This document shows positions 20,021 through 24,005 of a stretch of DNA of 24,244 nucleotides, one piece after another. The notes beneath the pieces were generated by a model. That model made no database searches. It saw nothing but the letters and a program-made list of their open reading frames with translations, and was not told the origin of the DNA. Source of the stretch: a virus; IMG/VR virus record IMGVR_UViG_3300030102_000140, positions 2,409 through 26,652 of that record; one strand, written 5' to 3'. The position numbers and the translations under genes were made by a program. The first letter of the stretch is position 1; each line of letters begins with the position of its first letter.

Positions 20021-20059
20021 ATGTGTGAATTTTGTAACGGTGAATGTGTTTGTAGGTAA
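20021..20059 (+). CDS. Putative 12-residue Cys-rich micro-ORF
   Basis: ATG at 20021 opens a 12-codon frame encoding MCEFCNGECVCR, ending in TAA at 20057-20059; the final A is also the first base of the next gene's ATG (TAATG). Four of twelve residues are Cys, in the order C-x2-C-x3-C-x-C, which could bind one zinc ion. It is the only reading of the 47-base gap between the adhesin and the exported-protein gene. AGAGAA seven bases upstream is a weak ribosome site. It may be a real micropeptide or a leader that couples translation of the next gene. Chance is possible at this length. Confidence 0.4.
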   Translation: MCEFCNGECVCR

Positions 20060-20619
20060 TGGCTAAAGACCACCTAACTTTTTTTACATCACTAGCAGTA
20101 GTGTTTTTATTTACATTACTTTTATGCTCACAGGCACACACTGAGACAAATACTGTGTCATCGACTGTGGTTACAAATTCAACTCCACCTACTGCAAATG
20201 CACCTTCTATAATCAATTCGAATAGTGATATATGTAAAGTTGGTGTTGGAGCTAGTGTTCAAAATAATATTGTTGGACTAGCAAGTGGTATAGTCATTGA
20301 TGATGAGCTATGTCAAAAACTAAAACTTAGTCGATCTCTTTATGCTTATGGTATGAAAGTTGCGGCTGTATCTTTACTGTGTCAAGATCCTAGAGTATTC
20401 GACTCAATGATGGACTCTCAGACACCTTGTCCGTCTAGAGAAGGCATTGGCTCAGACGCTATGACTTACTGGGAAAACAACATATCTGAAATCCCTGACG
20501 GAAGTAAATACAAAACACAATACACACAACAAAAAGAGGCGAAAGAACAACCAATAGGAAACAATGATGGTCTTAAAAACTTTGCTCTTATGGCTCTTTC
20601 TATGCTTCTCATACTCTAG
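20059..20619 (+). CDS. Exported protein, four Cys, C-terminal membrane tail
   Basis: A 186-residue protein. Residues ~7-26 form a Sec signal peptide (FFTSLAVVFLFTLLLCSQA) with probable cleavage after Ala26; the LLLC is not a proper lipobox. The mature part has Cys at 59, 85, 108 and 124, so two disulfides are possible. A conserved-looking block (LKLSRSLYAYGMKVAAVSLL, then CQDPRVFDSMM) matches an uncharacterised family I recognise from marine phage genomes. The last ~16 residues (GLKNFALMALSMLLIL) are hydrophobic and probably anchor the C-terminus in a membrane. The gene overlaps the next exported-protein gene by 56 bases. Position beside a spanin-like gene suggests an envelope role at lysis or superinfection, but the function is unknown. 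Confidence 0.75.
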   Translation: MAKDHLTFFTSLAVVFLFTLLLCSQAHTETNTVSSTVVTNSTPPTANAPSIINSNSDICKVGVGASVQNNIVGLASGIVIDDELCQKLKLSRSLYAYGMKVAAVSLLCQDPRVFDSMMDSQTPCPSREGIGSDAMTYWENNISEIPDGSKYKTQYTQQKEAKEQPIGNNDGLKNFALMALSMLLIL

Positions 20620-22057
20620 TTACGCTAATACTTGTTTACCTGACCACGAAGGTCTATGCGATCCAAGTGTTATTATTACTGAAGATACACAAGTTGAAAT
20701 AACTGAAGAAGATAAAGGCACAGAAATAGTCACTACAACGACAACTACTGTCACTACGACTACTACAACTATCACAAACGAGGACTCAGGTGATATTCTT
20801 GATGGATCAAATGACTATGTTTCTTCTAATAAAGAAGGTGACATGGACATTGACTGGGGTGGGCAAGGCTCTGCTTCTATGCCATCAGGTTCAACTTGCG
20901 GACAGCTAGGCACTGATAAATGTGCCATGATTACTGGTGGTGGTAATTCTACATCTGCGATGGGTGTTCCTAATATGGGAACAACATTTATTAATACAGT
21001 AGATATATCAGACCTTAGTATTTCTAATGGTGGAGAAACTAATTACGCAATAAAAGTATTTAAGCCTGATGCACAAGACTCTATCTATATGCACATTACA
21101 GGCAGAAATGGTAATACAAATGTATTTACTGGCACTGATATTTTAAGTGCTAGTGGGATAGACAGTCAATATCAAGAATATACTGGTGGTTTTGATTTTT
21201 CAGGCAGTCTGACTTCAATCATCGTTGAGGTTGGTGGTCGTGATATAAACATGGCTGTTGGTGTTATGTTTGACGATGTATCAGTCAATGTAATCTACAA
21301 TGTTATTAACACAATAGTTACTCAAAATATCACAACAATAGAAGAAATATATTACTTAGATATATTTGATCCAACAGAATTAGATTTTGTTGAAGAAGTT
21401 TTTGAATTTAATGATGTAAGTTTTGATGATGGCGAGATAAATTTTACACCTATAGAGCCTGAAACAGAAGAAATCACATACGAAACTGTAGAGCTAGAGA
21501 TACAAGAATTTGAAATTGATTTTGAGATAGATTTACCTGAACCTGAGATTGTTGCAGTTGAGATAGAAACAGAATTAGAATTAGAATTAGAGATTGAAAT
21601 GGAGATGGAGTTGGAGTTACCTGAACCTGAAGTGGAAGAAACAGTAGAGGTTGCTCAAGCAGAAGAACCATCTGATGAAAAGCCTGAAGAAACTGAAACT
21701 GTAGAAGAAACTACAGAAGAAGCACCAGTAGAAGCTGAAAGCAAAGAAGAAGAAGTTGAAAAGGAAGAACCTAAAAAACCTGTCAAAGAACCTACTAAAA
21801 AAGAAAAGGTTGCTACTAGAATCGTAAAGAAAATAGACGATAAAGAAAGATACGATGATACTGCACAGATCAAAACATTGATTGTGATGCAAATACTTGG
21901 TGACACCAAAGGTTTCTTTGATGCACAGGCAACAATACAAGACACTAATATCAATCAATATCTTGATAAATCCTTACAAGATCAGTTTGGAGTCTTGTTT
22001 GAACAAGCACAAGGACAAACTATGGAGGATATGATTAATGCCCAATACATCGATTGA
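20564..22057 (+). CDS. Large exported protein with acidic extended region
   Basis: A 497-residue protein with a clear Sec signal peptide (LKTLLLWLFLCFSYSSYA, cleavage likely after Ala21). Mature Cys at 24, 32, 112 and 120 could pair. Residues 57-69 are two runs of six Thr separated by Val. Residues ~112-265 look like a folded beta domain (MGTTFINTVDISDLSISNGG, then YMHITGRNGNTNVFTGTD). Residues ~268-405 are extremely acidic, first alternating Glu with hydrophobic residues (ELELELEIEMEMELEL, flanked by two LPEPE motifs), then Glu/Pro/Thr-rich, ending in a basic patch (KKPVKEPTKKEK). Residues ~410-497 are helical. AGGA six bases before ATG 20564 supports this start despite the overlap with the upstream gene. 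Function unknown; a periplasm-spanning or surface role is inferred. Confidence 0.78.
   Translation: MMVLKTLLLWLFLCFSYSSYANTCLPDHEGLCDPSVIITEDTQVEITEEDKGTEIVTTTTTTVTTTTTTITNEDSGDILDGSNDYVSSNKEGDMDIDWGGQGSASMPSGSTCGQLGTDKCAMITGGGNSTSAMGVPNMGTTFINTVDISDLSISNGGETNYAIKVFKPDAQDSIYMHITGRNGNTNVFTGTDILSASGIDSQYQEYTGGFDFSGSLTSIIVEVGGRDINMAVGVMFDDVSVNVIYNVINTIVTQNITTIEEIYYLDIFDPTELDFVEEVFEFNDVSFDDGEINFTPIEPETEEITYETVELEIQEFEIDFEIDLPEPEIVAVEIETELELELEIEMEMELELPEPEVEETVEVAQAEEPSDEKPEETETVEETTEEAPVEAESKEEEVEKEEPKKPVKEPTKKEKVATRIVKKIDDKERYDDTAQIKTLIVMQILGDTKGFFDAQATIQDTNINQYLDKSLQDQFGVLFEQAQGQTMEDMINAQYID
21450..21800 (+). repeat. Purine-rich low-complexity coding tract
   Basis: The + strand is dominated by GAA, GAG and TTA/GTA codons, encoding the Glu-alternating and Glu/Pro/Thr-rich region of the exported protein. 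Two LPEPE-coding copies (TTACCTGAACCTGA) begin at 21533 and 21617, 84 bases apart, and suggest an internal duplication. Codons are mixed, so it is not a simple microsatellite. Confidence 0.75.
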
Positions 22058-22559
22058 GTATAATGGACTTAAATTTACTGGTGGTAAATTTTTCATTATC
22101 ATATCTCTTATAGGTACAATCATAGGTGGTGGCTGGACAGGGTATAAGTTTTATGACGATTACCTTGATATGAAACAGCAAGTGCAAGATTTTGTTGCAC
22201 CTGACCTTAGTGGTTTTGATAAAAAGATTGAACTAGCTGAAGCTGAGATGGACAAAAGACTTCAGTTGATCGAACAAGAATTAGATATGATTAAAGGCGA
22301 GATGTCTATGATCCTTGAAGAAGTACAGCTTGTAGCTGGTGTAAGCACAGAATTGAAGAATGATCTAAAACAAGATTTACGATCCATGAACTCTGACATT
22401 CGACACATAACTGAGATAGTTAATGATGTCGAGGATAGACAAAAAGAAGATAATCGTGAACTTTTAGATGAGTTGAAATTACTAGAAGAAAACATAGACT
22501 TAAAAATTAACAAGGCATTGAACAATCCATTGAGTGATATGTCAGCAAAGGTGAAATAA
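22038..22559 (+). CDS. Membrane-anchored coiled-coil protein, inner-spanin-like
   Basis: A 173-residue protein with a short N-terminal segment, one membrane helix at residues ~18-36 (FFIIISLIGTIIGGGWTGY), then a long charged coiled coil to residue ~160 (EAEMDKRLQLIEQELDMIKG and following heptads). This is the layout of Rz-type inner-membrane spanins, which bridge to an outer-membrane partner and fuse the membranes at the last step of lysis. GGAGG about nine bases upstream supports ATG 22038, which overlaps the preceding gene by 20 bases. No small lipoprotein partner with a lipobox is found; the exported protein just upstream could be the partner, or this may be another kind of envelope protein. 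Confidence 0.65.
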   Translation: MPNTSIEYNGLKFTGGKFFIIISLIGTIIGGGWTGYKFYDDYLDMKQQVQDFVAPDLSGFDKKIELAEAEMDKRLQLIEQELDMIKGEMSMILEEVQLVAGVSTELKNDLKQDLRSMNSDIRHITEIVNDVEDRQKEDNRELLDELKLLEENIDLKINKALNNPLSDMSAKVK

Positions 22560-22981
22560 TGACAACAGCAGTAGTAAGAAAACAAGGCAACAGACCAAGC
22601 AAATACAAACAGTCTATCTTATCAGACTTGTTTGAAATGTTAGCAAGAGGTCAGACCATTCGTGAATGTTGCAAAGAACTAGATGTATCTTGGACTACTC
22701 TGAGACAATGGATAAACAAAGACGAAAAACTTAACAAACAATATTTACAAGCAAAGCATGATAGCGTTTTATACACTATTGAAGATTTAGATACTTTGCT
22801 AGAACAAGCAAAAACAGATCCTAAATTAAACATGACTAAAGTTAAACTGTTAGAGATCATACAAAAAAATGTTCATTTCAAGGCTGGTAAACTAGCACCT
22901 AAGATTTTTGGTACAGAAAAACAAACTATGTCTATCCAAGACCAAAAGGGTAACGAGTTTAAGGTGGAGTGGTCTAAATGA
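22559..22981 (+). CDS. Terminase small subunit (HTH DNA-binding)
   Basis: A 140-residue basic protein with a helix-turn-helix near residues 32-55 (TIRECCKELDVSWTTLRQWI), preceded by a homeodomain-like first helix. Residues ~70-125 are helical with KVKLLEIIQKNVHFKAGKLA then PKIFG, the pattern that follows the DNA-binding domain in many small terminases, where it forms the oligomer ring. Small terminases recognise the packaging site and load DNA onto the large subunit. The start overlaps the upstream stop (TAATG) and the end overlaps the next start (ATGA). No large subunit is in the window, so it is expected beyond either edge. A transcription regulator is the main alternative. Confidence 0.78.
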   Translation: MTTAVVRKQGNRPSKYKQSILSDLFEMLARGQTIRECCKELDVSWTTLRQWINKDEKLNKQYLQAKHDSVLYTIEDLDTLLEQAKTDPKLNMTKVKLLEIIQKNVHFKAGKLAPKIFGTEKQTMSIQDQKGNEFKVEWSK

Positions 22982-23172
22982 ACATAAACATAAAAACAAT
23001 TGCACCCTATTTAGTAATAGCCGCATCAATGCTGATTACTTGGGGTACATGGAGTCAGAGACTAGAGGCAGTTGAAAAAAAAGCAGACTCTATTACACAA
23101 ATGCAACAAGACATAGCTGTCATTAAAGAGAAGATAATTTGGATAGAGAACTATCTTTTATCTGACAAATAA
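22978..23172 (+). CDS. Small membrane protein with coiled coil
   Basis: A 64-residue protein with one membrane helix at residues ~7-25 (IAPYLVIAASMLITWGTW) and a short coiled coil to the C-terminus (DSITQMQQDIAVIKEKIIW). It resembles small lysis-associated membrane proteins such as XhlA-type or short spanin-like proteins by shape only. It overlaps the terminase gene by ATGA and lies just before lysozyme, consistent with a lysis role. A run of eight A lies within the gene (near 23074) but the frame is intact. Confidence 0.65.
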   Translation: MNINIKTIAPYLVIAASMLITWGTWSQRLEAVEKKADSITQMQQDIAVIKEKIIWIENYLLSDK

Positions 23173-23184
23173 ATTGGAGTAAAT

Positions 23185-23613
23185 ATGTACGAAGATATAA
23201 AAGAAGAAATTATCAAACATGAAGGTAAGAGAAATAAGATTTACCTCGATCATTTGGGAAATGCCACAATAGGAATAGGGCATTTAGTTTTACCATCAGA
23301 CAATTTAGAGGAAGGAGTAGAATATGAAGATGACAAAATTATGGAACTCTTTGAACAAGACTTTAGACAGGCTTCCATTGATGCACAAACTTTCATCGAA
23401 GGGCAAGATATTGATCCTCGTGCTTTTGGCTGCATTATTAATATGGCATTTCAGCTAGGATTACCTAGACTATCAAAATTTGTCAAATTTAAAGACTGTT
23501 TAATGAAAAAAGACTATGTATCTGCTAGTTCAGAAATGCTCGATAGTCGTTGGGCAAAACAAACTCCAAACAGAGCAAACGAACTAGCAGAGATCATGAG
23601 GAGTATTGTATGA
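23185..23613 (+). CDS. Endolysin, T4-type lysozyme (GH24)
   Basis: A 142-residue muramidase that cleaves the glycan strand of peptidoglycan. The catalytic triad is intact with the exact T4 lysozyme spacing: Glu13 (KHEGK), Asp22 (YLDHLG) and Thr28 (ATIGIGHL), corresponding to T4 Glu11, Asp20 and Thr26. The C-terminal part has the expected helices, including INMAFQLGLPRLSKF and SRWAKQTPNRANELAEIM. Length is close to phage family members (T4, 164). There is no signal peptide, so release must depend on a holin. GGAG seven bases before ATG is a good ribosome site. It is followed by a holin-like gene with an ATGA overlap. Confidence 0.95.
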   Translation: MYEDIKEEIIKHEGKRNKIYLDHLGNATIGIGHLVLPSDNLEEGVEYEDDKIMELFEQDFRQASIDAQTFIEGQDIDPRAFGCIINMAFQLGLPRLSKFVKFKDCLMKKDYVSASSEMLDSRWAKQTPNRANELAEIMRSIV

Positions 23614-24005
23614 TACAAATGTTAATTAAGCCTTTGTTGGGTGTAGCAACAAGTGCTGTAAGTGGCTATGTAGAAACTAAAAAAGCAAAAGCAGACCTTG
23701 CTTTGACTGAAATTAAGGCACAAAAGGCAATTAAAGAGCAGCAAATTCAGGGCAAAATTTCGTGGGAAGCTAGTGCTGTCGATCAAATGAAAGGGAGCTG
23801 GAAAGATGAGCTAATTTTAATATGCCTATTAGTTCCAGCGGTAGCAGTATTTATTCCTGGTTGGACTCCACATATAAAAGCTGGGTTTGAAGCATTACAT
23901 TCATTACCAGATTACTACAAGCATCTCTTATATATTGCTTGTTCAGCGAGTTTTGGCATCAAGGGAGCAAAGGGTGCTATGGGTTTGATAACAAAAAAGA
24001 AATAA
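23610..24005 (+). CDS. Holin-like membrane protein
   Basis: A 131-residue protein. I choose ATG 23610, since it gives an ATGA overlap with lysozyme and AGGAG lies seven bases upstream; an earlier in-frame ATG at 23550 would extend 20 residues into lysozyme. Residues ~1-60 contain a helical Lys/Ala-rich region. SWKDELILICLLVPAVAVFI (residues 63-82) leads into the first clear membrane helix and PGW; a second hydrophobic segment (YYKHLLYIACSASFGIKG) lies at 102-119. The WKDE-helix-PG layout is familiar from marine phage holin-like proteins next to endolysins. It probably forms the membrane lesion that lets the lysozyme out. Confidence 0.75.
   Translation: MIQMLIKPLLGVATSAVSGYVETKKAKADLALTEIKAQKAIKEQQIQGKISWEASAVDQMKGSWKDELILICLLVPAVAVFIPGWTPHIKAGFEALHSLPDYYKHLLYIACSASFGIKGAKGAMGLITKKK

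Follow-up and report, generated by a model that had tools for sequence, protein, structure and literature searches.

Two-component spanins of the lambda Rz/Rz1 type include a subunit with an N-terminal transmembrane helix and a periplasmic coiled coil and an outer-membrane lipoprotein, and their genes overlap and occupy a slot beside the endolysin, holin and terminase genes (Kongari et al., 2018; PMC6139136). A unimolecular spanin carries an N-terminal lipobox and a C-terminal transmembrane domain in one protein. SAR11 phages are moreover known to bear mobile envelope proteins in the form of the pelagiphage type VIII secretion (curli) module (PMC7029224; PMC9599517; PMC9004378). In the open literature searched, the outer-membrane step of SAR11-phage lysis has no assignment; queries on the module described below, on pelagiphage lysis genes and on virion proteomics yielded no mention of the module, and no virion proteomics was found. 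SAR11 phages rank with the most abundant viruses known.

The stretch of DNA analysed here (the window) is 24,244 nucleotides long and covers positions 2,409 to 26,652 of the IMG/VR virus record IMGVR_UViG_3300030102_000140, which comprises 26,652 bases with a pelagiphage-like gene content. Three genes, A, B and C, follow a tail-fibre region. Next come the small terminase subunit (TerS), a short coiled-coil protein with a transmembrane segment, a lysozyme and a holin-like gene, the endolysin and holin standing 0.6-1.1 kb after C. The features of the locus are as follows.

20059..20619, plus strand: gene A, exported 186-aa protein (ORF; AF2 model; IMG/VR relatives)
20191..20478, plus strand: conserved disulphide-type domain of A, predicted beta-hairpin and helices (invariant or near-invariant residues)
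20564..20619, plus strand: A/B overlap of 56 nt, encoding the A hydrophobic tail and the B signal peptide in two frames
20564..22057, plus strand: gene B, exported 497-aa protein (ORF)
20777..21301, plus strand: B beta-sandwich, carbohydrate-binding-module-like, aa 72-246 (VIA structure comparison)
21356..21793, plus strand: B acidic linker, predicted disordered, aa 265-410 (pLDDT 23-49; variable length in homologues)
21797..22051, plus strand: B C-terminal helical part ending in the MINAQY motif (motif counts; low-confidence model)
22038..22559, plus strand: gene C, 173-aa inner-membrane coiled coil with N-terminal transmembrane helix (ORF; homologue charges)
22515..22532, plus strand: ALNNPL motif near the C-terminus of C (alignment; linkage test)
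22978..23172, plus strand: small transmembrane coiled coil, 64 aa (15/57 loci have a relative close to the module)
23185-23613, plus strand: endolysin, T4-type lysozyme (PF00959)
23610-24005, plus strand: holin-like gene (phrog_2524)

The initial annotation had described three consecutive envelope-targeted genes with overlaps of 56 and 20 bases, and the ORF coordinates bear out both overlaps (A/B and B/C, respectively), while A and B possess Sec-type signal peptides and C an N-terminal transmembrane helix. TerS of the window has no match among named phages; it stands between C and the 64-aa coiled coil, unlike in many related loci bearing the module, where relatives of this small protein often lie directly 3' of C. 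The 64-aa protein is thus a possible fourth member of the module in the clade of the window.

Protein A begins with a signal peptide (about aa 1-26) and contains a conserved four-cysteine domain (about aa 45-140), the two being separated by an Asn/Thr/Ser-rich segment whose length differs greatly among homologues. The mature protein has 4 cysteines that are invariant or nearly so, and the positions conserved to this degree are P49, D57, C59, G73, D82, C85, G98, C108 and C124. The AF2 model (pLDDT 78) consists of a beta-hairpin and helices, for which neither Foldseek, VIA nor sequence comparison found a PDB relative, an absent match that does not prove a new fold; likewise no relative of known function or fold was found. 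The conserved domain, as well as a relative of A, matches PHROG 20531 (function unknown), and one viral-library match led to phiAxp-2. At the C-terminus (aa 170-186) there is a hydrophobic tail, short at about 15 residues and followed by no basic residue. Overlap with the signal-peptide region of B is observed for 50/51 tailed A's versus 8/29 tail-less A's, so that the tail could be considered a mere by-product of the overlap. This explanation is ruled out by codon variation: within the overlap, position 3 of A codons, where changes are always non-synonymous in B, is about twice as variable as position 2, indicating that the A frame itself is constrained, and in locus L042 the tail is kept although the A/B overlap is absent. 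The earlier proposal of a secreted protein with a C-terminal membrane tail therefore stands for its signal peptide and for a hydrophobic tail maintained in its own frame.

Protein B, which had been described as a large secreted protein with an even cysteine count, indeed has 497 residues, a signal peptide and 4 cysteines in its mature form, and is composed in order of the signal peptide, Thr-rich strands, a beta-sandwich, an acidic linker and C-terminal helices. As modelled, the head has a carbohydrate-binding-module-like beta-sandwich fold, with VIA Z scores of 12.9 to the sugar-binding domain of Fbs1, 11.2 to CBM16 and 11.0 to the phage Kp7 tail fibre, at about 10% identity, those to Fbs1 and CBM16 at about 3 A over 137-155 residues; the sandwich probably binds an envelope glycan. 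Head domains vary by phage group, being CBM-like in the clade of the window and of other types in L071, L072 and ctXG6705. The MINAQY motif is present in 45/68 complete B homologues as against 50/2368 other ORFs, and thus does not qualify as a universal B motif.

Protein C consists of a hydrophobic transmembrane helix followed by coiled-coil-type sequence (judged by eye), and the charge bias of 45/61 homologues fits an N-in/C-out orientation, in agreement with its initial assignment as an inner-membrane coiled coil. Alignment of C homologues shows a shared ALxNPL motif in which NPL is invariant and AL nearly invariant. Two proteins annotated as lysozymes, CRP-810 gp51 (L008 7198-7620) and CRP-207 gp73 (L009 3292-3873), have the transmembrane helix, coiled coil and NPL end of C homologues, and their annotation looks wrong. 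Tandem C pairs, each copy ending in NPL, occur in L071 (8185-9269), L083 and L088.

Signal-peptide-like hydrophobic N-termini are present in 78/80 A and 76/80 B homologues, and even loose lipobox-like matches number only 1/80 and 7/80, respectively. Across the whole window no exported ORF with a lipobox was found, as had been noted for the three proteins themselves. The description "spanin-like" accordingly suits the shape of C and lacks its other half, the lipoprotein partner; since this lipoprotein is missing, ABC is not a spanin by definition.

A scan of IMG/VR with the A alignment gave at least 584 stretches with a true relative of A, the best 80 of which were examined, and a further 12 relatives were taken from bacterial genome contigs. 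Every locus having at least 3 kb downstream (63/63) contains an ORF with an NPL or NPM end within 4.5 kb after A, against a background of 15/1941 ORFs. The reverse scan from C found A upstream in 24/24 loci with 3 kb and in 7/7 with 2.2-3 kb, in total 31/31, and thus co-occurrence and order hold in both directions. Clustered by identity of A, the 63 linked loci fall into 53 groups at 90% and 31 at 70%. A, B and C are a single linked module. Among the named phages that carry it are HTVC115P, HTVC023P, HTVC202P, HTVC033P, Baldr, the myovirus Mosig, Votkovvirus S28C10 and two Roseobacter phages; because these fall in different phage groups, the three genes have probably travelled together. In L077 (7297-8629), L064, L068, L080 and L085, B and C are separated by three extra exported genes of about 166, 130 and 136 aa. 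Extra genes X and Y at this place looked pilin- and PapD-like, but PDB profile searches of both gave no match, so neither is assigned.

The A domain is also found in two Achromobacter phages and some proteobacterial genomes, whereas an NPL-tailed C was found neither alongside the bacterial A homologues nor in the JWDelta and phiAxp-2 stretches. The A domain is therefore probably an envelope component that predates its combination with C in phages. A proteobacterial operon type (L120, L121, L122, L125) encodes an exported Gly/Ser/Asn-rich protein, an A-domain protein and an exported protein of about 110 aa, in some cases adjoined by a response regulator, and in a Novosphingobium protein (L126 5491-6759) the A domain is joined to a peptidoglycan-binding OmpA domain.

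At the site of the module, sister phages in three phage groups carry an alternative cassette composed of a transmembrane coiled coil and a gene of about 70 aa. Votkovvirus S28C10 has holin-A-B-C-TerS-TerL where its congener HTVC200P has lysozyme-holin-coil-71aa-TerS-TerL; HTVC202P has A-B-C-TerL where HTVC026P and HTVC111P have coil-small protein-TerL; and HTVC023P has A-B-C-M15 peptidase where HTVC027P has coil-small protein-M15 peptidase. In HTVC200P the pair lies after lysozyme and holin and before the terminase, which is the usual spanin slot. The coil of this pair occurs in 45 phage records, nearly all of pelagiphages, and examples in the spanin slot, without lipobox, are L128 (5212-5786), L131 (5104-5678) and L205 (4001-4545). 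The coil pair is a candidate for the missing outer-membrane lysis step. HTVC115P alone among named phages has both the coil pair and ABC, and the two adjoin in the metagenomic or genome loci L026/L139, L032, L034, L198 and L103. Of the identifiable neighbours of the module in other loci, lysozyme is one of the most frequent. Where an endolysin could be placed, about half of the genomes have it near ABC, and it adjoins the module in the window, HTVC023P, HTVC033P, ctXG6705 and others. A constant location beside the endolysin is untrue, as the two lie 10-24 kb apart in eight records (HTVC115P, Baldr, HTVC202P, CRP-810, Mosig and three contigs).

We tentatively favor, at somewhat less than an even chance, a late envelope-spanning complex of A, B and C with a spanin-like role at lysis. 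In such a complex, made late in infection, C would be anchored in the inner membrane and extend a periplasmic coiled-coil rod tipped with the invariant NPL motif; exported B would place its sandwich probably on envelope glycan, span the periplasm with its acidic linker and dock its helical C-terminal part on either the rod of C or A; and disulphide-stabilised A would, in the clade of the window, be held at the membrane by its tail. The linkage, signal peptides, membrane helix, absent lipobox, selection on the A tail, CBM-like fold and positional swap are computed results; from them we infer that the three proteins bind one another and, like a spanin, may couple inner membrane, wall and outer membrane at lysis, so that the outer membrane would fail once the endolysin has cut the wall. 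Late timing and glycan binding would likewise be part of this model. The obligate linkage both ways across 31 groups at 70% identity, the same-site swaps in three groups, the i-spanin-like layout of C, and the endolysin and holin near C in the window, with lysozyme a common neighbour elsewhere, argue for this role. It is weakened by the absent lipoprotein partner, by the distant endolysin of eight records, by the side-by-side occurrence of coil pair and ABC in HTVC115P and about five other loci, and by the fact that the coil pair is itself only a putative spanin; B is also far larger than a typical spanin part, and the bacterial A homologues, in small operons of exported Gly/Ser-rich proteins, point to a surface role. 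A bolder version, which we regard as doubtful, is that ABC may be a third kind of outer-membrane-breaking system, lipoprotein-independent and three-part with a glycan-binding head, replacing spanins in unrelated phages whose hosts are SAR11, Roseobacter-group and other marine diderm bacteria.

That same bacterial context would suit a surface or periplasmic fibre or adhesin altering aggregation or attachment of the infected cell, in a role comparable to pelagiphage curli, and so would the long Asn/Thr-rich N-terminal stretches of A homologues, the response regulators next to the bacterial genes, the OmpA fusion and the further exported genes between B and C. Curli itself was considered since pelagiphages carry it, and is ruled out because none of the searched phage and virus records that bear ABC, several of which are fragments, matched CsgG (PF03783); a fibre would thus have no known route through the outer membrane, and the bacterial operons have no counterpart of C. 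We regard the fibre explanation as unlikely. Superinfection exclusion, in which the complex would coat the wall or the periplasmic side of the outer membrane, with the C rod anchored in the inner membrane and the variable B head (sandwich or other) masking a receptor or blocking DNA entry, is in our estimation unlikely. The B heads do differ by phage group, as expected for a host-specific target, the context is not always that of lysis, and the module has probably moved between unrelated phages, but in many genomes it lies in the structural, lysis or terminase region and not in an early one, and known exclusion proteins are usually single and small. Accessory virion or genome-ejection proteins with incidental hydrophobic N-termini might be suspected from the tail-fibre-type genes preceding the module in the window and from the resemblance of the B sandwich to a tail-fibre domain (Kp7 gp52); the nearly universal signal-peptide-like N-termini, the conserved cysteines and the inner-membrane topology of C make this very improbable. 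The initial hypothesis of a lysis or superinfection-exclusion complex is upheld in part, as to a linked envelope module with an inner-membrane rod and an acidic linker. Its lysis half fits the site, which is where some sister phages keep the lysis-cassette coil pair, and is weakened by the distance to the endolysin in about half of the placed genomes and by the occurrence of the A domain, without C, in bacteria and two Achromobacter phages.

ABC is a new, linked and abundant phage module of the cell envelope, carried by many phages of the commonest ocean bacteria; its proteins probably work together in the envelope of the infected cell and may help to break it open. The linkage, exceptionless in the loci examined, and the swap with an unexplained coil pair provide a short list of genes for the outer-membrane lysis step, and if lysis proves unaffected by ABC, the same genes become candidates for a new form of exclusion.

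Compared with the two-component spanins, ABC has in C the same N-terminal transmembrane helix and periplasmic coiled coil, and matches them in gene overlap and, for several genomes, in a position next to endolysin, holin or terminase, but it comprises three genes without lipobox or outer-membrane lipoprotein, includes a large CBM-like partner and is often far from the endolysin (PMC6139136). With respect to the unimolecular spanin, A has a hydrophobic C-terminal tail and no lipobox. The pelagiphage coil pair (HTVC019P/HTVC200P type) resembles ABC in its site, its transmembrane coiled coil and its lack of a lipobox, whereas no similarity to A or B was found, its coil has no NPL tail, and it sometimes adjoins ABC. 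PHROG 20531, to which JWDelta JJJA_0025 probably belongs, has the conserved A domain in common with the module, which differs in its NPL-tailed C. The pelagiphage curli module differs from ABC in gene order and proteins, and both are sets of mobile, phage-borne envelope proteins of SAR11 phages (PMC7029224; PMC9599517; PMC9004378).
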